A stretch of 26,867 nt of DNA, from positions 1 through 26,867 of the IMG/VR virus record IMGVR_UViG_3300042508_000032; one strand, given 5' to 3'. Below the pieces are notes generated by a model, which saw only the letters and a program-made list of their open reading frames with translations, was not told where the DNA came from and ran no database searches. This stretch comes from a virus. The translations under genes were made by a program, and so were the position numbers. The stretch's first letter is position 1. Each line of letters begins with the position of its first letter. Shown here in pieces: positions 15,471-25,460 of the stretch.

Positions 15471-15915
15471 TGGTAACCGGGATCGCGCCGATGAGCTTCT
15501 GCGTCAGACGCCGCATCGGCACATCGCTGCCGACTGCATCGAGCACCGTGCTGAGCGTCACCTGCAGCCCTACCTCGTCCCATTTGCCGCCGGCTACCTG
15601 GCCGACGTATTGATGCAGTCGCGTGAATTGCGACCGATCGTCTGGGTTGAGCAGCATCACGTCGATGGTGGCCAGCCAGCGGTTGTCGATCGACTCGACC
15701 GCCCAGTTGCGGCTCAGCGTGTTGTTGGGCAGCACCAGGCTCGCCTCAGTGTTGTCACCCGTGCGGTTGACCGTGACGCCCGAGAACCCGAACGGCAGGA
15801 AGCCGTAGCTGTTGCCGCTGTGGGTGATCGTCTCGCCGATGAAGAAGTTCTGGAATTGGTGCAGCGTGACAGCGTTGAGGCTGAACGTCAGAAAGTTGCC
15901 GACCGCTAGTTCCAT
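15451..15915 (-). CDS. Tail tip protein, gpL/DUF1833-like
   Basis: This 154-aa beta-rich protein has landmarks ITHSGNSYGFLPFGFSGVTVNRTGDN, ASLVLPNNTLSRNW and RWLATIDVMLLNPDDRSQ. The pattern resembles distal-tail proteins that follow the tape measure gene (lambda gpM/gpL region, DUF1833-like). The name is by position and general look. The ATG overlaps the tape measure stop codon as TGATG, so the two are translationally coupled. Its 3' end overlaps the NlpC-like gene by 20 bases. Confidence 0.78.
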   Translation of the reverse strand: MELAVGNFLTFSLNAVTLHQFQNFFIGETITHSGNSYGFLPFGFSGVTVNRTGDNTEASLVLPNNTLSRNWAVESIDNRWLATIDVMLLNPDDRSQFTRLHQYVGQVAGGKWDEVGLQVTLSTVLDAVGSDVPMRRLTQKLIGAIPVTSAIRLQ

Positions 15916-18900
15916 CAGACCCCGACCTTCCTGCGTGTGCTGGCGCTTGTCTGCAGCCGCCTGAGCGTTTGCTGTTCACCGCGTGCTGCGCCCTCGCGTG
16001 CGGCACGCTGCAGCCCCTGCTGGAACTGCTCGGCGGTGACGTACTCGACGTTATTGATCCGCTCGACCGTATAGCGCACGTCGATCGCGCCACCGGCCGC
16101 CACAGCGCCACCAGCAGCCGCGGCCATGTCGCCGTCGTTGGTGACCGTCCCAGTCGCGCCCATCGGCCGGTAGCGGTCCAGCACATCGTTGCGCTGCTGC
16201 ACCTTCACCGGGATGTTGCGGCCGTCAGGCAGCGGCACGTAGGCCTCCGGGCCGCGCTCGCCGTAGACAGCCATCTGTGGGCTGTTGGCGATGCCGCCGC
16301 CCGCGTAGCGCCGCAGGGGCAAAGGTCCGACATTCGTCATCACGCCGCCGTCGGCGAACTTTAGGAACCCGCCAAGCCCGAGACCGCCGGCCAAGCTGTT
16401 AAGACCGAACCGAATCAGCGCGCTGCCGATGTCCTTCAGCACGCCGCTAGCGATCGCCTTCAGCTTGTCCTCCAGGCCCTCGGCGCCGGTCATCGCCGCC
16501 TCGATGGCCGCGTCAATGCCGCCGATGATGCCCTGCGACAGCGTGTTGCCGATCGACTGCGTCAGGTCAGACAACAGCTGCTGCTGCCGATTCAAGTTCT
16601 CAAGCGCCTGCTGCTGCCGGCCGATCTCATCGACGATGCCCTGCTCGGCGAGCAGCCGCTGCTGCACCTCTTGCTTCAGGCCCTCGAGCTGCGCACGCTG
16701 CTGCGGGTTGAGGTCAGAGCGTTGCAGCTCAAGGTCGAGCTGGTTCTGCAGCGCCTCAAGACGCTCAATCTCTCGGTTGGCGATGCTCTCAGCCTCGACA
16801 CGCTGCTGCGCCATTTCAGGGCTCAGCCCGCCACGCATCAGCTCATAGAGCCGCTGCTGATCCTGCAGCTGCTGCGCTGCACTGCGGGTTGCGCCGTCGA
16901 GATCCTGCTTGTACTCGCCGAACTTGCCCAGATAGCCGTTGAACAGGTCGTTGAAGGCCTGCTGGTTTTTGACCGCCTGCTCGGTGCCGATCGTGCCGCC
17001 CAGCTGCTGCCCTGCGCGCTGAATGCCGCCCATCAGGCCCGAGCTGTTGAACCCGCCAGCGGCAGGTCCCATCGGCTGCGCCTGCATCGCATTAGGCAGG
17101 AACTGCCGGTAAGCGCCGGAGCGGAACACTGACCAGGCGCCGAAGCCCTGCGACTGAAACACACGACGCGCGGCCATCGCATTCGTGGCCGGGTCAAACA
17201 GCTGCGCGTTGTTGCCGATGCCGAACTGCCGGCGCCGCTCAGGCCCCATTGCGCCCAGCATGTTGACCTGCCACAGGCCGTAGCTTTTGTCGCCGGTGGC
17301 TGCGTTGCCGTTGAACGCGCTGCTGCGGCCGCCGCTCTCGGCCATCGCGATTGCCGCCATGATGCGCGCGTCGCGATCGTTAAAGCCGGCTGCCTTGGCA
17401 AGGCCGACCAGCGTGCCAACGCTCAACCGGCCGCCCTGCACCGATCCGCTGCGCAGGTTTGACGGGCCGACCATGCCGCCGGTAACGCCGCCACCTGCGC
17501 CGCTGAGCGCACCAGCTGCGGCCTGCGCGCCGCCGACCATCTTCGCCGCCAGCTTGTCGCCTGCGTCCTGCAGGATGTTGCTGACCGATCTGGCGTAGCC
17601 CTCCTGGATCTTGCCGATGCCGTCGGCGACGCTGGTCTTAAAGTCCTCCAGCTGGCGCTGCAGCTGCACCTGGCGATCGGTGGCGGTCTGTTCGTTCTGG
17701 ATGCGCTGCTCGCTGTAGCGCCGCGAGATCTCGCCCAGCTCACGCGCCGCGTCGATGCCCTCGGTGCTCAGGCCCGCTGCTGCCAGCCGCTGCCGCTCCA
17801 CCTCGAGCGCTTGGTCTTGCTCTTGCTCAGCAATCCGACGACGTGCTTCAGCAATGCTCCGCTCGATCTGCAGCCGCTGATCGCCCAGGTCGCGCTCAAG
17901 GTCAGCCGCGCGCTTAATCGTCTGCTCGCGGAAGTCGGCCAGCTGCTCGGCGTTGCGCTGCGCAGCGTCGGCCAGCTTTTCTTCGGCATCGAGTCGAATC
18001 TTGGTTTCGTCTTCGAGCGCTTTCTTGCGTGTGGCAGCTCTTGAAGCCTCCCGCTCTTTGTCGGCGGCTTTTTGTGCGTCAAGTTGGCTGGTATCAAGCC
18101 GGTCGCTTTTTGCCGCCTGAATGGCCGCCTGGCCTTGCAGCTGCTTAAGTTGCTCGTCGTAAGCCTTTCTGAAGTCAGGGTTGAGGAAGCTGATTAAGCC
18201 CCCCATCGTTTCGCTTCCATAAGTCTGCTTTGCGGCGCCTCTAAAGGCCCGCTCTTTCAGAACGGCTTCATTACCGCCCTCCAGCCGGGACTTGTTGTAA
18301 CGCTGCAGCGCGTCCGCAGCGCCGCTGACCGCTTTCGTAAACAGCTGGACCAGGCCAACAGCGATCGGACCAAAAGCGTCACCGATCGCCACCTGCAGCT
18401 TGTTGGTCGCGTTAGACAGATCCTTAACGGCCTGCTGACCTGTGCCGAATGACTTCTCGAGCTTTGGTAGTTCTTTCTCGCCCAGCTCCCTTAGCGCTTC
18501 GATCAACACGTCTGTGGTGATCTTGCCCTCGGCGCCAAGCTCCTTAAGCTGACTGCGCGTCACTTTGCCGAAGGTGCCCAGCTTGGTCATCTGTTCAGCA
18601 ACAGCCTGACCAAGGGCTGGCGCCTGCTCGAGGATCGACCGAAGCTCGTCACCTTGCGCACGGCCGCTGACCAGCGCTTGCTTGAGCTGAATCATCGCCG
18701 CGCTGGTTTCTTCAGCGGTCGCGCCGCTTGTACGCGCAGCCACGTTGAAACCCGTGAAGATTTGCTCAAGCTCTTTCAGGCTCACGCCAGTCGGTCGCAG
18801 GCCTGCGTAGAGCTTGGCGAAGCTATCTGTCGCTTCGGTGTTGGTGATCCGCAGCGTGTCGGCCAGGCGCGCAGCGATCTCCTGAGCCTGGTTGTATTCG

Positions 18901-19382
18901 CCGTAAGTGTCAGCAAGCGCCTTGAGCCGCACCTGAGCGACTTCGGCCTCCATGCTTGCGTTGGCGATGCCGCCAACGATTCTGGAAACGCCAAGCGTGC
19001 CGGCAACAGCGGCAACGCCTGCAAACCCGCCTCTAACGCCGCTTAAAGCCCCAAGAAGGCCACCCTGGCCGCCGGCGCTGTCTAGCCTGGCCTGCTGCCG
19101 CTGCAGCTTTTCCAGCTCGGCGCTGTAGAACCTGAATTGACGGCTGCCGATCTGCGCTTCATTGCGCAGGTTGCTCATGACAGTGATCTGCCGCTGCAGC
19201 GCGTTAATCGACGTGCCTGCTGCTGCAGATAGCTTGCGGCTGGCGTTGTAGAGCTGATCAAGGTCGCGGCTTGAACGCGAGGATTGCTGCCCAAGCCCTT
19301 GCAAAGCGCGCTTCAGCTGGTCGAGCCCTTGGCCCTCCAGCTTCGCCGTGAACCGCAGTGCGGTGTCGAGGGTCATCGCCAT
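15915..19382 (-). CDS. Tail tape measure protein with embedded lysozyme-like domain
   Basis: This 1155-aa protein sets tail length and travels down the tube at infection. Residues about 1-120 are coiled (LDQLKRALQGLGQQSSRSSRD). Residues about 130-320 form the tape measure domain (ARTSGATAEETSAAMIQLKQ, ALVSGRAQGDELRSILEQAP, AEGKITTDVLIEAL). A long coiled coil follows (about 420-560). Around 650-760 is a lytic-transglycosylase/lysozyme-like domain with Glu682 in AMAESGG, then SYGLWQVNM and QGFGAWSVFRSGAY. A further coiled coil follows. The C-terminus has membrane-prone stretches and YGERGPEAYVPLPDG, a typical end of tape measure proteins. AAGGAGGG lies about seven bases before the ATG, inside the end of the GT reading frame. 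The embedded domain probably loosens peptidoglycan at entry. Confidence 0.94.
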   Translation of the reverse strand: MAMTLDTALRFTAKLEGQGLDQLKRALQGLGQQSSRSSRDLDQLYNASRKLSAAAGTSINALQRQITVMSNLRNEAQIGSRQFRFYSAELEKLQRQQARLDSAGGQGGLLGALSGVRGGFAGVAAVAGTLGVSRIVGGIANASMEAEVAQVRLKALADTYGEYNQAQEIAARLADTLRITNTEATDSFAKLYAGLRPTGVSLKELEQIFTGFNVAARTSGATAEETSAAMIQLKQALVSGRAQGDELRSILEQAPALGQAVAEQMTKLGTFGKVTRSQLKELGAEGKITTDVLIEALRELGEKELPKLEKSFGTGQQAVKDLSNATNKLQVAIGDAFGPIAVGLVQLFTKAVSGAADALQRYNKSRLEGGNEAVLKERAFRGAAKQTYGSETMGGLISFLNPDFRKAYDEQLKQLQGQAAIQAAKSDRLDTSQLDAQKAADKEREASRAATRKKALEDETKIRLDAEEKLADAAQRNAEQLADFREQTIKRAADLERDLGDQRLQIERSIAEARRRIAEQEQDQALEVERQRLAAAGLSTEGIDAARELGEISRRYSEQRIQNEQTATDRQVQLQRQLEDFKTSVADGIGKIQEGYARSVSNILQDAGDKLAAKMVGGAQAAAGALSGAGGGVTGGMVGPSNLRSGSVQGGRLSVGTLVGLAKAAGFNDRDARIMAAIAMAESGGRSSAFNGNAATGDKSYGLWQVNMLGAMGPERRRQFGIGNNAQLFDPATNAMAARRVFQSQGFGAWSVFRSGAYRQFLPNAMQAQPMGPAAGGFNSSGLMGGIQRAGQQLGGTIGTEQAVKNQQAFNDLFNGYLGKFGEYKQDLDGATRSAAQQLQDQQRLYELMRGGLSPEMAQQRVEAESIANREIERLEALQNQLDLELQRSDLNPQQRAQLEGLKQEVQQRLLAEQGIVDEIGRQQQALENLNRQQQLLSDLTQSIGNTLSQGIIGGIDAAIEAAMTGAEGLEDKLKAIASGVLKDIGSALIRFGLNSLAGGLGLGGFLKFADGGVMTNVGPLPLRRYAGGGIANSPQMAVYGERGPEAYVPLPDGRNIPVKVQQRNDVLDRYRPMGATGTVTNDGDMAAAAGGAVAAGGAIDVRYTVERINNVEYVTAEQFQQGLQRAAREGAARGEQQTLRRLQTSASTRRKVGV

Positions 19383-19385
19383 GGC

Positions 19386-20044
19386 TCAGCCCTCCTTGTG
19401 CATTGCGGCCAGTGCTGCGCCTTCCATGATCTGCAGATCCTCCAGCAAGGCGCGCTGATCCTTCACTTCGTACAGTCTAAGGAGCCACTCCACGGCCGAG
19501 TAATCGAGGCCGATCACGCCGCCAGCACTTGCGCGCCACTGCGTCTGCACACGGCACCACATCAGCACCGCCTCCCAGTTCTCCTCCCACACCTCAAACT
19601 GATCAGGCGCCGCTGGTTCAGGTGCTGGCATCCCGAACACTGCGGCATCAGCTGCGGTTTCGTCTTTTTCACCGCCGCGAGCCCAGAACTCAGCGGCGGC
19701 GATTAGTTTTTTCGTTTCGCCTTGCTCAGGCTGTCGAGCCAGCTGCTCACGACAGCAGCAGCGACCAGCGGGACGTTCAGCAGGTCGGCTTTTGCCTTCT
19801 CGCTGTACGGGACCTGATCGCCTTTGCCGTCTTGAATACCGGACCAGCCGACCAGCACCTCGCTGCACAGCTCGTCATCGTTGAGATCGCCGGACTGGAT
19901 CCGGTCCCAGATCTCGCGGATCCGGGCCTGCGGCAGCCGGCGAAACTCAGCGTCAAAGGTCTGTTTGTCGAACCGGCCGCCATCAACGGGAAACTCAACG
20001 GCGACCGGCCAGCTGTACGACTCGCTCTGAGACAGAACGAACAT
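19386..20044 (-). CDS. Tail assembly chaperone GT (product of -1 frameshift)
   Basis: The product is made by reading G (20044-19706), slipping back one base and continuing in the -1 frame from the CTA codon at 19706 to 19386, giving about 219 aa (113 + 106). The T part contains an FEVWEENWEAVLMWC word, an RASAGGVIGLDYSAVEWLLRLY word and an ALLEDLQIMEGAALAAM word, which match DUF1799-type gpT domains as I recall them. In lambda, G and GT coat the tape measure protein and recruit tube subunits. Order here (tube, G, GT, tape measure) is the same. No independent ribosome site or convincing start exists for the T frame; its upstream part is only a shadow of G. Confidence 0.9.
19703..20044 (-). CDS. 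Tail assembly chaperone G
   Basis: This 113-aa protein is the unshifted product, located between the tail tube and tape measure genes. It starts MFVLSQSESYSWPVAVEFPVDGG and has a mostly helical body (FDAEFRRLPQARIREIWDRI), then ALSKAKRKN-like basic residues just before the stop. The type matches gpG-like tail chaperones that begin with a beta segment and end at a slippery site. GGAG lies six bases before the ATG. The stop codon TAA follows the slippery heptamer directly, so most ribosomes make G and a minority make GT. Confidence 0.92.
   Translation of the reverse strand: MFVLSQSESYSWPVAVEFPVDGGRFDKQTFDAEFRRLPQARIREIWDRIQSGDLNDDELCSEVLVGWSGIQDGKGDQVPYSEKAKADLLNVPLVAAAVVSSWLDSLSKAKRKN
19706..19712 (-). 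promoter_or_regulatory. -1 programmed frameshift slippery site A AAA AAC
   Basis: On the minus strand the zero-frame codons are CGA AAA AAC TAA, which give a textbook X XXY YYZ heptamer, A AAA AAC. After a -1 slip the Lys and Asn tRNAs re-pair on AAA AAA and translation goes on with CTA ATC. The zero-frame stop immediately follows. The -1 frame is open for 106 codons and encodes a DUF1799-like domain. Confidence 0.93.
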
Positions 20045-20056
20045 TCGGGGCTCCTA

Positions 20057-20989
20057 TCAGGTGTAGGCGAGACTCAGTTCGTCGTTGCCTGCCGATGTGG
20101 GCAGCGCAACGTAGGGCAGGTTCAGCATCTGGATGCCGTCCTGGTCGGCATAGGTCGGCTGACCGATGTCGATCTTCTGAGCTGTGAACGTGACGATGTT
20201 ACCGGCGGTCTGACCGTGCTGGAAGCTGATCGAGCCGGTGGTGTCGTTGTTGGCGATCGCGAAGAAATCCTTTGTCGCCAGCGCCGGAGCCTCGATCACG
20301 GCAGTGCCCGCAGGGGCGCGGTTGGTGATCAACACCGACTTATCGCAGCCCACCAGCTCGCGATAGATCACCTCGTTGGCAATGTCGAAGGTCAGCGACT
20401 GCAGGCAGGCGCTGTAGGACAGGATCGAGAAAGCGGTGGTGTTGCCCGCCTTAAAGATCACCGGGGTGGCCTGGTTGGTATAGGTCGTCGCAGGAGCGGC
20501 GGTATCGGTCGGGGCGTTGTAAATGCCCGTCATCGTGAAGTTCAGGGTCGGAATCTGACCGACTTCAGCGTTCAGGCTGAAAGTGCCGCGGCAGCCGGTG
20601 ATCGGGTGCAGCACGCCGTCCACGTTGACGTGGATGGTGCAGCTGCTGAAGCTGCTGGAGACCGGCGCATAGGTCACCGATGTCGTCGCCACAACGGTCT
20701 CGGACAGGCCGCAGGCCTTGAGCAGCGAGCCGTAGCGAGGAGCGGTGCCAGCGGTGCCGGACCCGGCAAACTCAACCTCAAAGGTCACGCCAACGCGCGT
20801 GTTGGCCAGCAGACTCTCAGAGTTGCCGAGATAAGGCCGGATCAAATCGCGGCTGACAGTGTCGGACTCGATCGGCGTGATCTCGAGATTGCGCACCAGC
20901 ACGGCGTCAGAGCCGGCGGGCGAGCTGCTGGTGCCGTAGGTGGCCTCAGTTTTCGCCAGAATCAGACGTTTGCGGGTTAGCAGAGCCAT
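20057..20989 (-). CDS. Major tail tube protein
   Basis: This 310-aa protein would form the tail tube by stacking rings. The beginning (MALLTRKRLILAKTEATYGT...) and the 'SDTVSRDLIRPYLGNSESL' block are typical of phage tail tube proteins of this kind. Strands follow such as GVTFEVEFAGSGTAGTAPRY, ITGCRGTFSLNAEVGQIP and LNFTMTGIYN. It lies just upstream of the G/GT chaperones and downstream of the tail terminator, which is the standard place. The first 44 bases overlap the end of the preceding 57-aa gene in another frame. The stop TGA is followed by the ribosome site for G. Confidence 0.9.
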   Translation of the reverse strand: MALLTRKRLILAKTEATYGTSSSPAGSDAVLVRNLEITPIESDTVSRDLIRPYLGNSESLLANTRVGVTFEVEFAGSGTAGTAPRYGSLLKACGLSETVVATTSVTYAPVSSSFSSCTIHVNVDGVLHPITGCRGTFSLNAEVGQIPTLNFTMTGIYNAPTDTAAPATTYTNQATPVIFKAGNTTAFSILSYSACLQSLTFDIANEVIYRELVGCDKSVLITNRAPAGTAVIEAPALATKDFFAIANNDTTGSISFQHGQTAGNIVTFTAQKIDIGQPTYADQDGIQMLNLPYVALPTSAGNDELSLAYT

Positions 20990-22027: not shown

Positions 22028-23371
22028 TCAGGTGGTGACATCCAGGATGGCAGCGAAGCTCTTGGGATCGCGCACAGCCACGTCGTAGGTGACGATGCCG
22101 CGGACGCTGGTCAGAGCCTTGCTGAAGTCGTCCTGATCTTCGCCGACGGTGATCTCGAGGCCGTTACCCCAGAAGCCGACCATGGCCTGGCTGAAGTCGC
22201 CCATCAGCAGAGCCGAACAGACGCCGGAGCTGCTGCCCTTGGTCAGGTTGCTGGGCACCTGGTTGGTCAGGGCGAGCGGGTAACCGTTCAGGTTGACGGG
22301 GGTGGGGCCGCGGCCGATGGCGTTCAGCTGATCGTTGACCAGGAACGGGCCGTCGCCGGTGGTGGAACCACCAGCACGGAGCTTCTTCAGAGCAGCGGAG
22401 ACCTTGTAGTTGGTCAGGTACGCCACGTTCGCAGCGTTCACCACGCCGTTGGCCTGCATCACGGCAGACTCGAGATCGACCACCTTTTCGACGGTGATAG
22501 CGCCACCGTTGGTGCCCATTGCCACCGAACCGATGCCGGAGGTCTGCATGATGCCGGTGGGCTGGCCGCTGGAGCCAGAGCCGTTGAGGATGCCCAGGTC
22601 GATGGCGAGGTTGATGCCATCGGTCAGGTCACGACGCACCAGCTCCTCGATGCCAGGGGTGCCCTGCAGCAGAGTCTGGCGGCTGTACTTGGACAGAGCA
22701 GCCAGGTTCTTGGGGCTCATGGTCACTTGGTCGAAGGTGGACTCCGACTGAGTGATCGCGGTGGTCTGGGTGCTCAGGTAGTAGGTCGAAGCCACACCGG
22801 AGCGGCGGGGGATCGCCACGTTGCCGACCAAGCCAGGCATGGTGCGCACGCCCAGCTGAAGCATCAGGGCGTTGTTCCGCAGGAACTCGATGAAGTCATC
22901 GGCCAGCAGATCGGTCGCAACCAAGTTGCCGCCGGTCGATGCACCCGAGGTCACGTAGGTGGCGCGCTGGTTCAGGGCAGCGAAGGGGACGAAGAAAGAG
23001 CGCTCGGTCGTCTTGGCGACGCCGGACTTCTCAACCTCTTTCGACAGCTCACGCACCAGGCCGGCCTCGCGGCTCGACCAGTCGCCGGTGAGCATGGCGC
23101 GGATACCAGCGGTGATGCTGTAACCGGCGCGCTCCTCAGCGGCCATCTCAACAGGAGCCACGGTCTCAACCGGCTTAGCGCCCAGCTTGTCGAGCACAGC
23201 AGCGCGAGCCTCATCAAGGCCGCGGCCGCTTTCGATCAGCTGACGGCCAAGCTCGGCCATGCCGTGCTTCTCGGTCAGGGCAGTGATGCCAGCAATACGG
23301 GCGCGCTCAGCTTTGGCAGCCTCGGCAGCCGCTTCAGCCCGCACCGCCGTGAGATCGGGGGTGTTTTCCAT
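22028..23371 (-). CDS. Possible internally started capsid with scaffold domain
   Basis: Met183 of the protease-capsid gene (ATG at 23371) is preceded by GAGG with a five-base spacer (GAGGTTCAA then ATG), the best ribosome site in the head region. Initiation here would give a 447-aa scaffold-plus-capsid protein without protease. This would solve the problem that a fused gene makes protease and capsid in equal amounts, in the manner of lambda C/Nu3, where a second product starts inside the first. It is an inference from sequence; no product is proven. Confidence 0.55.
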   Translation of the reverse strand: MENTPDLTAVRAEAAAEAAKAERARIAGITALTEKHGMAELGRQLIESGRGLDEARAAVLDKLGAKPVETVAPVEMAAEERAGYSITAGIRAMLTGDWSSREAGLVRELSKEVEKSGVAKTTERSFFVPFAALNQRATYVTSGASTGGNLVATDLLADDFIEFLRNNALMLQLGVRTMPGLVGNVAIPRRSGVASTYYLSTQTTAITQSESTFDQVTMSPKNLAALSKYSRQTLLQGTPGIEELVRRDLTDGINLAIDLGILNGSGSSGQPTGIMQTSGIGSVAMGTNGGAITVEKVVDLESAVMQANGVVNAANVAYLTNYKVSAALKKLRAGGSTTGDGPFLVNDQLNAIGRGPTPVNLNGYPLALTNQVPSNLTKGSSSGVCSALLMGDFSQAMVGFWGNGLEITVGEDQDDFSKALTSVRGIVTYDVAVRDPKSFAAILDVTT

Positions 23372-23917
23372 TTGAACCTCGGGTTCGGTTTCGGGGGTTG
23401 GTGATGCGGCTGTGGCCGCAGGATCAGACTCGAGAGCCCGACCCATACCCACAGTGGGGTCTGCAGGTATGCTAACCACGCTGATCTCGTAGGGAGTCCA
23501 ACTGGTAGCGACGAAATCACCGCTGCCGCGTTGTTCCATATCGTTGATCGCGTAGCCGAAGGACACATTCCGCAGAACGCCGTCCTTCACATCAGCCAGC
23601 ACCTCCTGTGCAAAGGAGTTGCGGCTGAACTTCACGCTGGCATAGCCGCGCTTTTTCTCGCCGTCGATCCATGCGCGCTCGACCACGCCAATCACCTTGT
23701 TCGGGTCGTGGTTGAACAGCAGCGGCGCCGAGTCGTTGAGGCGGCCAAGGTCCACGCTGCGCTCGTCGTGCTGCAGCACCTCGTTGCCGAAGTACCGGGC
23801 CACCGGGAACTCGCTCGAGAACGGGAACTCAATGCTGCGCTCGTCTTCGCTGACCGCAAAATCGGTCACCTCAGCGCGCTTCAGCAGCTTTCCCTCTAGA
23901 TCACGCGATAGGTCCAT
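22028..23917 (-). CDS. Fused prohead protease and HK97-type major capsid protein
   Basis: This 629-aa protein joins two usual head genes. Residues about 1-160 are an S78-type prohead protease with a likely triad of His70 (LLFNHDPNKVIG), Ser119 (VLRNVSFGY) and Glu144 (PYEISVVSIPADP). Residues about 165-290 are a Pro/Glu-rich linker and an Ala-rich coiled region like a scaffolding delta domain (AEAAAEAAKAERARIAGI). From about 300 to the end is an HK97-type capsid (SSREAGLVRELSKE, GNLVATDLLADDFIEFLRNN, IPRRSGVASTYYLSTQ, LTDGINLAIDLGILNGSG). I chose the ATG at 23917, which overlaps the portal 3' end by 17 bases; the frame is open to 24160, but that part is a shadow of portal. Self-cleavage would free mature capsid. 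Confidence 0.92.
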   Translation of the reverse strand: MDLSRDLEGKLLKRAEVTDFAVSEDERSIEFPFSSEFPVARYFGNEVLQHDERSVDLGRLNDSAPLLFNHDPNKVIGVVERAWIDGEKKRGYASVKFSRNSFAQEVLADVKDGVLRNVSFGYAINDMEQRGSGDFVATSWTPYEISVVSIPADPTVGMGRALESDPAATAASPTPETEPEVQMENTPDLTAVRAEAAAEAAKAERARIAGITALTEKHGMAELGRQLIESGRGLDEARAAVLDKLGAKPVETVAPVEMAAEERAGYSITAGIRAMLTGDWSSREAGLVRELSKEVEKSGVAKTTERSFFVPFAALNQRATYVTSGASTGGNLVATDLLADDFIEFLRNNALMLQLGVRTMPGLVGNVAIPRRSGVASTYYLSTQTTAITQSESTFDQVTMSPKNLAALSKYSRQTLLQGTPGIEELVRRDLTDGINLAIDLGILNGSGSSGQPTGIMQTSGIGSVAMGTNGGAITVEKVVDLESAVMQANGVVNAANVAYLTNYKVSAALKKLRAGGSTTGDGPFLVNDQLNAIGRGPTPVNLNGYPLALTNQVPSNLTKGSSSGVCSALLMGDFSQAMVGFWGNGLEITVGEDQDDFSKALTSVRGIVTYDVAVRDPKSFAAILDVTT

Positions 23918-25460
23918 CAGTGGCCTCGTCGTCGTCGTTGTCTTCCACATTATCGGCAGGCGCTGCTTCTTCCTGCTCGACCGGTTCAGCTGCCTCCAGC
24001 TCGTGCTCAGGGTTGCTGTCGAAATACAGCTCAAGCTCGTCAGCGCGATCGACCTCTGACTTGCGCGCCAGCAGCAGCTCCTCGAGGTCGCCGCCTTGCT
24101 CGGCCACGACATCCGCCTGCGTCTTGAATCCGCAGCGCACCGCTTCCTTGTACGCCTCAACTTCCTTGGCCGGGTCCACCCACGCCCACCCGCGCGGCAT
24201 CCACCGCACCATCCGGTAGCGCTCAGGGTCGGTCTCGTAGGCCGGCAGGTTCAGCGCACCGCTCAGCACCGCCATTTCCAGCCAGGCCTCGAACACCGGC
24301 CGGTGGAAGTTTTCGATCATGAAGTGCTGCAGCGCTTTCCAGTTTTCGCGATCCTCCAGCAGGCTCAGCCGGCTGCTGCTGTAGTTGGTTTGGCTGAAGT
24401 CGCGGCTGATCGTCTCGTAGCTGCAGCCCACACCGGCTGCCATCGCGCGCAGCATCGCCCGCATGAACGGCTCGAGCTGCCCGTCCGGCGCATCCAGCTG
24501 CGGCACAGTCACAGACTCGCCCGGCGCCAGGTACTTGAACACACCCGGCTCGAAGTTGCTCACCCGCTCGCCGTCGAGCACCTCATCGCCGACCAGCTCG
24601 CCCTCAGGGCTGGTGATGAACCCCATCAGCGCGCTGCTTGCCCGTGCGCGCACCACCTCCGCCTGCTCGTAGCCGGCCACCATGTGCAGCCGCTGGATCG
24701 CGCTGGCCAGCATCGGCACGCCGCGCGTCTGGCCCGGCCTGTCCATCAGGTACAGGTGCAGCACATCATCAGCTGCCACGAACCGGTGCCGCGGCGCACC
24801 CACAGGCGTGCCACCCACGCCGCTGTCGCCGGGGTGCTTGGTCAGGAACGCATAGCGAACAGGCCGGCCCCAGCGGTTTAGCTCGACGCCCATCCGCCAC
24901 TCGTTGCCCTCGACCGTGCTGCCGCCTGTGTACGTGTCATCGAGCAGATCGCTCTCGACGATCTCCAGCGCAAACGGCACTTTGCTGCGGCCGAACGGCT
25001 GCCGCACCATCCGCACGAACACCTCGCCGCTCTCAGCCATCGAGCCGACCAGCAGCCGCTCCATGTCCGTGAAGCTCAGCCGGCCAGCCGTGTGGCAGCT
25101 GTCCTTACGGCCCCACACCGCCCACGCGCTCTCGATCGCATCGTTCACCGCCTGATCCAGCCGGCCACCGCCGCGCTGCATCCGCACCTGCGCCTGCATC
25201 CTGATGCCGGTGCCGATCACGTTGTTCTTGACCGCACGGATCGCCTGCCGCGCGTAGTCGTTGTCGCGCACCAGCTGGCGGCTGCGGTTCCGCAACCGCT
25301 GCAGGCTGCCCTTGATCTCAGCATCAGCGCTGGTGCCAGATGTCACCCAGTCGCTGGTCAGCCGGCTAACCTTGGCGCCCTCATACATGCGCCGCCGTGG
25401 TGCCGGCAGCGTCGCCGGTGTCCGACGGAACAGCTCGCGCAGTGCAGTACGAACGCCCAT
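23901..25460 (-). CDS. Portal protein (lambda B family)
   Basis: This 519-aa protein would form the dodecameric portal through which DNA is packaged. Landmarks are RSRQLVRDNDYARQAIRAVK, NNVIGTGIRMQAQ, WAVWGRKDSCHTAGRLSF, AESGEVFVRMVRQ, LHLYLMDRPGQTRGVPMLASA, GVGCSYETISRDFSQTNYSS and RMVRWMPRGWAWVDPAKEV, which together are characteristic of lambda B-type portals. The C-terminal 60 residues are strongly acidic (LELYFDSNPEHELEAAEPVE). The ATG overlaps the upstream stop codon as TGATG, and the 3' end overlaps the protease-capsid start by 17 bases. Confidence 0.95.
   Translation of the reverse strand: MGVRTALRELFRRTPATLPAPRRRMYEGAKVSRLTSDWVTSGTSADAEIKGSLQRLRNRSRQLVRDNDYARQAIRAVKNNVIGTGIRMQAQVRMQRGGGRLDQAVNDAIESAWAVWGRKDSCHTAGRLSFTDMERLLVGSMAESGEVFVRMVRQPFGRSKVPFALEIVESDLLDDTYTGGSTVEGNEWRMGVELNRWGRPVRYAFLTKHPGDSGVGGTPVGAPRHRFVAADDVLHLYLMDRPGQTRGVPMLASAIQRLHMVAGYEQAEVVRARASSALMGFITSPEGELVGDEVLDGERVSNFEPGVFKYLAPGESVTVPQLDAPDGQLEPFMRAMLRAMAAGVGCSYETISRDFSQTNYSSSRLSLLEDRENWKALQHFMIENFHRPVFEAWLEMAVLSGALNLPAYETDPERYRMVRWMPRGWAWVDPAKEVEAYKEAVRCGFKTQADVVAEQGGDLEELLLARKSEVDRADELELYFDSNPEHELEAAEPVEQEEAAPADNVEDNDDDEATDGPIA

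Follow-up and report, generated by a model that had tools for sequence, protein, structure and literature searches.

The window, a viral sequence of 26,867 nucleotides analysed at its full length (IMG/VR record IMGVR_UViG_3300042508_000032), carries on its minus strand the tail genes tail tube, G, T and tape measure in that order, which bears out the reading of G and T as a tail chaperone pair in the initial annotation. By domain search, the tail tube protein lies upstream (310 aa; 20057-20989; PF18906 Phage_tube_2, 7e-29) and the tape measure protein downstream (1155 aa; 15915-19382; PF20155 TMP_3, 1.6e-34; TIGR02675). The tape measure protein also holds a transglycosylase/lysozyme-like domain, SLT_3, at residues 661-751. 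Between them lie G (113 aa; 19703-20044) and T, a −1 frame extension of 106 aa plus stop (19386-19706), which stops 3 nt short of the start of the tape measure gene (19382).

Read directly on the minus strand, the zero-frame 3′ end of G is GCG AAA CGA AAA AAC TAA, followed by TCG. The slippery heptamer, A AAA AAC with AAA AAC as its zero-frame codons, runs from 19712 to 19706, and the TAA of G (19703-19705) abuts it. The initial annotation had given the same heptamer position and CGA AAA AAC TAA context, with the stop at once after, and all of its numbers are right; it had left the strand unstated, and we find the heptamer on the minus strand, in phase with the 113-aa ORF of G. The −1 frame is open for exactly the 106 codons that had been counted (19706-19389; stop at 19388-19386), and its translation from the C at 19706 begins LIAAAEFWARGG. 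This anatomy, together with conservation in relatives, predicts a GT fusion of 219 aa (19386-20044) that would comprise the 113 residues of G and then LIAAAEF.... AAAAAAC occurs three times in the window against 0.76 expected; by itself this count is weak evidence, and we rejected it as support.

T matched PF08809 (DUF1799) with E = 3e-18 and 66.3 bits, above the curated cut-off of 26, so that the DUF1799-like domain proposed for the −1 frame is indeed there; it also matched phrog_680 (3.5e-32). The kinship of G to known tail assembly chaperones is supported by a weak match to phrog_313, ‘Tail assembly chaperone’ (E = 4e-4), and by model resemblance: a Foldseek search with its AlphaFold model (mean pLDDT 82) returned viral models named ‘tape measure chaperone’ (best named E = 6e-4), and the model resembled the HK97 chaperone 2ob9 weakly (Z = 2.9). 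G also matched phrog_569 (1.3e-17), and a PDB sequence search using the G profile gave no convincing match.

The closest portal proteins are those of S-LBS1, S-CBS1 and S-CBS3 (64-67% identity), and the label ‘cyanobacterial-type’ given earlier to this phage is therefore fair. Elsewhere on the minus strand, one ORF (22028-24160) fuses a prohead protease (PF04586) to the major capsid protein (PF05065); the TTG at which it was called to start makes it overlap the portal gene and probably lies too far upstream. Another (1581-2657) encodes a lysis enzyme in which phage lysozyme and peptidase M15 domains are fused. A tRNA 3′ half (TTTGCAGGTTCGAATCCTGCCGGGGCCACCA; 270-301) lies next to the called tyrosine integrase gene (271-1494) and is probably the attachment site; ARAGORN found no complete tRNA.

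We gathered junctions by protein similarity, not by motif, from IMG/VR, bacterial genomes and isolate phages; since the loci share ancestry, the counts below are of non-independent events. All 59 IMG/VR loci with full-length relatives of G (39-90% identity) carry A AAA AAC with an immediate TGA, TAA or TAG and T in the −1 frame. For scanning the collections, the broad alignment of T proved too diverse and a closer one took its place. A further 116 T loci were gathered independently by protein similarity, 36 from bacterial genomes and 80 from IMG/VR, some on contigs common to the G set. The heptamer is followed immediately by a stop in 110 of these (107 by script; L081, L093 and L172 by hand), four have one codon between heptamer and stop, and an in-phase X XXA AAC is present in 115. 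After removal of duplicates, and with at most one codon permitted before the stop, 154 of the 158 distinct junctions combine A AAA AAC or G GGA AAC with an immediate G stop and T in the −1 frame, and the other four have a single intervening codon. Isolate phages are represented with both A AAA AAC-stop (S-CBS1, S-CBS3, S-LBS1, HK639, PHB10, Smarc2, MED16, phiES15 and pAEv1818) and G GGA AAC-stop (PS-1, RC1 and SYP). G GGA AAC stands in place of A AAA AAC in 13 sequences, which requires at least four changes on the T tree. The expectation that related phages would conserve the heptamer thus held: it lies at the junction, in phase, in all of the roughly 60 G relatives and nearly all of the 116 T relatives. 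It is this conservation, rather than the number of heptamers, that gives the site its strong support.

Four more relatives, which the 158-junction set excludes, deviate further. L106 has G GGA AAC with its stop 36 nt downstream, and in ZDD2 the heptamer lies 9 nt upstream of the stop. L082, from a Synechococcaceae MAG (425-461), has a run of eight A with the stop about 27 nt downstream, and slippage there may be of another type or occur during transcription. Klebsiella phage vB_KpnS_Op1_ER4 (L072; 1500-1534) has a DUF1799 T in the −1 frame without X XXY YYZ, hence without a canonical heptamer; CAA AAG near its stop is a possible tetranucleotide shift site.

We then weighed this reading against other ways in which G and T could be expressed. 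T might be translated as a gene in its own right, from a start codon within the −1 frame and with coupling to termination of G; the window has a GTG at +66 and an ATG at +75 nt in that frame, and GenBank records annotate such internal starts. However, T residues are conserved from Leu1 onward, upstream of these candidates, and Leu1 is invariant in the alignment. No start is present near the junction, the first possible ones vary in place from 21 to 189 nt downstream among relatives, and no Shine-Dalgarno sequence was found before the first in the window. Just past the heptamer, in a stretch that in most loci lies ahead of every usable start, diversity at −1 frame codon positions 1, 2 and 3 is 0.24, 0.32 and 0.48, highest at the third. 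Together, the third-position diversity, the conservation of Leu1 and the variable starts favor reading through the heptamer over a separate start, which would also leave the heptamer unexplained. Homologues with a separate T, its own start and no heptamer, named in the initial annotation as evidence that would contradict it, were sought in more than 170 loci and found in none of the cyanophage and prophage relatives; one Klebsiella phage, Op1_ER4, lacks a canonical heptamer. We regard a separate T gene as very improbable.

Polymerase slippage on the A run, producing mRNAs with an inserted base that fuses G and T, would find six A at the site in the window and A8, with a displaced stop, in L082. 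Six A, however, make a short run for slippage by the polymerase, and the 13 relatives with G GGA AAC, which contains no long homopolymer, have it at the same place; this substitution points to tandem tRNA slippage rather than slippage during transcription, of which we think the chance slight. Also in favor of frameshifting, lysine in G is encoded by AAG 351 times vs 112 for AAA, yet the heptamer Lys is always AAA at A AAA AAC sites. Viewed in isolation, a one-base frame change with an immediate stop resembles a pseudogene or a sequencing error that has split one long gene, but the identical junction in isolate phages and independent metagenomes refutes this by conservation and makes such damage vanishingly improbable. 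On comparative evidence, the junction is almost certainly genuine, a programmed −1 frameshift site of the same kind as lambda G/GT.

An immediate G-frame stop after the heptamer requires CTG-A, CTA-A or CTA-G in the T frame. Elsewhere in T, 162 of 1381 CTN codons (11.7%) create one, vs 154 of 158 at the junction. Where the next base is G (n = 9), seven junctions use the rare CTA and keep the immediate stop, while the remaining two use CTT and stop one codon later. Because the residue at T position 2 varies (I, T, K, R or E), the stop is not a mere by-product of a fixed peptide. For a stop-codon mechanism, the background is common knowledge of the field and the review PMC5009743. The excess of immediate stops at the junction and the seven uses of CTA suggest, tentatively, that the abutting stop is itself part of the signal; if so, which we hold to be possible but on balance doubtful, slow termination would poise the Lys and Asn tRNAs to slip, and the G:GT ratio would depend on release-factor availability.

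A second candidate element is an RNA stem-loop (10 bp + 5 bp; 19669-19702, minus strand) that folds 3 nt past the heptamer. A 92-nt segment of RNA from the window has a folding energy of −35.9 kcal/mol (z = −2.3). Against synonymous shuffles that preserve the T protein, z was −2.4, and none of the 200 shuffles reached so low a value. Synonymous-shuffle z was about −2 to −3 in close relatives, −2.6 in S-LBS1, which has a different stem sequence, and near zero in several other lineages. Covariation was weak, a +3-column shift scoring nearly equally, and RNAalifold found no compensated pair in the stem-loop; we therefore do not claim it as conserved. It is plausibly a local stimulator rather than a defining feature.

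The sequence anatomy, the conserved heptamer, stop and −1 frame, and the domains were observed directly; from these sequence data we infer the slippage itself, its efficiency and the chaperone function. Most ribosomes would stop at TAA and release G as a 113-aa tail assembly chaperone. A minority would slip into the −1 frame at A AAA AAC, with tRNA-Lys and tRNA-Asn re-pairing in tandem, possibly aided by the downstream stem-loop and by the stop codon that awaits decoding in the A site. These shifted ribosomes would read 106 more codons, yielding the 219-aa GT that ends in the DUF1799 domain. If the pair works as gpG/gpGT do in lambda, the tape measure protein would be coated by many copies of G and few of GT, with the T part recruiting tail-tube subunits.

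Frameshifting of the lambda G/GT type is already well known (Levin 1993; Xu 2004, 2013, as cited in PMC5009743), and occurs here with a DUF1799 extension. The phase of the heptamer, the gene order and the open, conserved −1 frame all fit the proposed lambda-like logic with a different heptamer. As in lambda, a two-product tail chaperone lies between the tail tube and tape measure genes, an X XXY YYZ heptamer sits near the 3′ end of G, and T is in the −1 frame; unlike lambda (G GGA AAG), the window has A AAA AAC, a stop directly after it and a DUF1799 T part. The contrast with the lambda heptamer stands, but A AAA AAC is not new for G/T pairs, being the G/T shift site of the haloarchaeal virus HCTV-2, which differs from the window in being an archaeal virus (PMC5009743). 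In E. coli, A AAA AAC is far less prone to shifting than A AAA AAG (PMC5009743), and this counts against our reading. Burkholderia phage KL1 (gp18/gp19) offers a predicted precedent with G GGA AAC-TGA, a heptamer-stop arrangement noticed earlier in that single phage (PMC3483164); KL1 differs from the window in host and heptamer, and has an extra tail gene before the tape measure gene. Serratia phage Smarc2 shares A AAA AAC-TGA and a T with a DUF1799-type extension, but only about 40% identity in T and no common stem-loop. The nearest named relatives, the cyanosiphoviruses S-CBS1, S-CBS3 and S-LBS1, have the identical heptamer-stop junction. Within the part of the literature covered, we found none linking DUF1799 to frameshifting and no cyanophage literature describing this junction site. 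The sole new point is the lineage-wide heptamer-plus-stop signature, which is mildly new.

In the S-CBS1, S-CBS3 and S-LBS1 records the frameshift is unannotated and T is truncated. The earlier remark that ORF callers would give T a false N-terminus holds for S-CBS1, S-LBS1 and PS-1. The annotated start of S-CBS1 gp14 lies about 70 nt past the junction codon, that of PS-1 PS1_65 is about 66 nt late, and that of S-LBS1 A20 is about 200 nt past the junction, which is covered by a reverse-strand ORF. HK639 has no annotated T gene, the RC1 CDS begins at the junction CTG, and the Smarc2 annotation, at the same type of site, joins the two frames as a ‘pre-tape measure frameshift protein’. The site fills a systematic gap in the annotation of cyanosiphoviruses and of many prophages, in which T is truncated, mislabelled or missing, and X XXA AAC plus a stop before a DUF1799 frame provides a simple pattern for automatic detection of tail-chaperone fusions. 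The conserved stop adjacency offers a testable case for termination competing with, vs promoting, −1 slippage.
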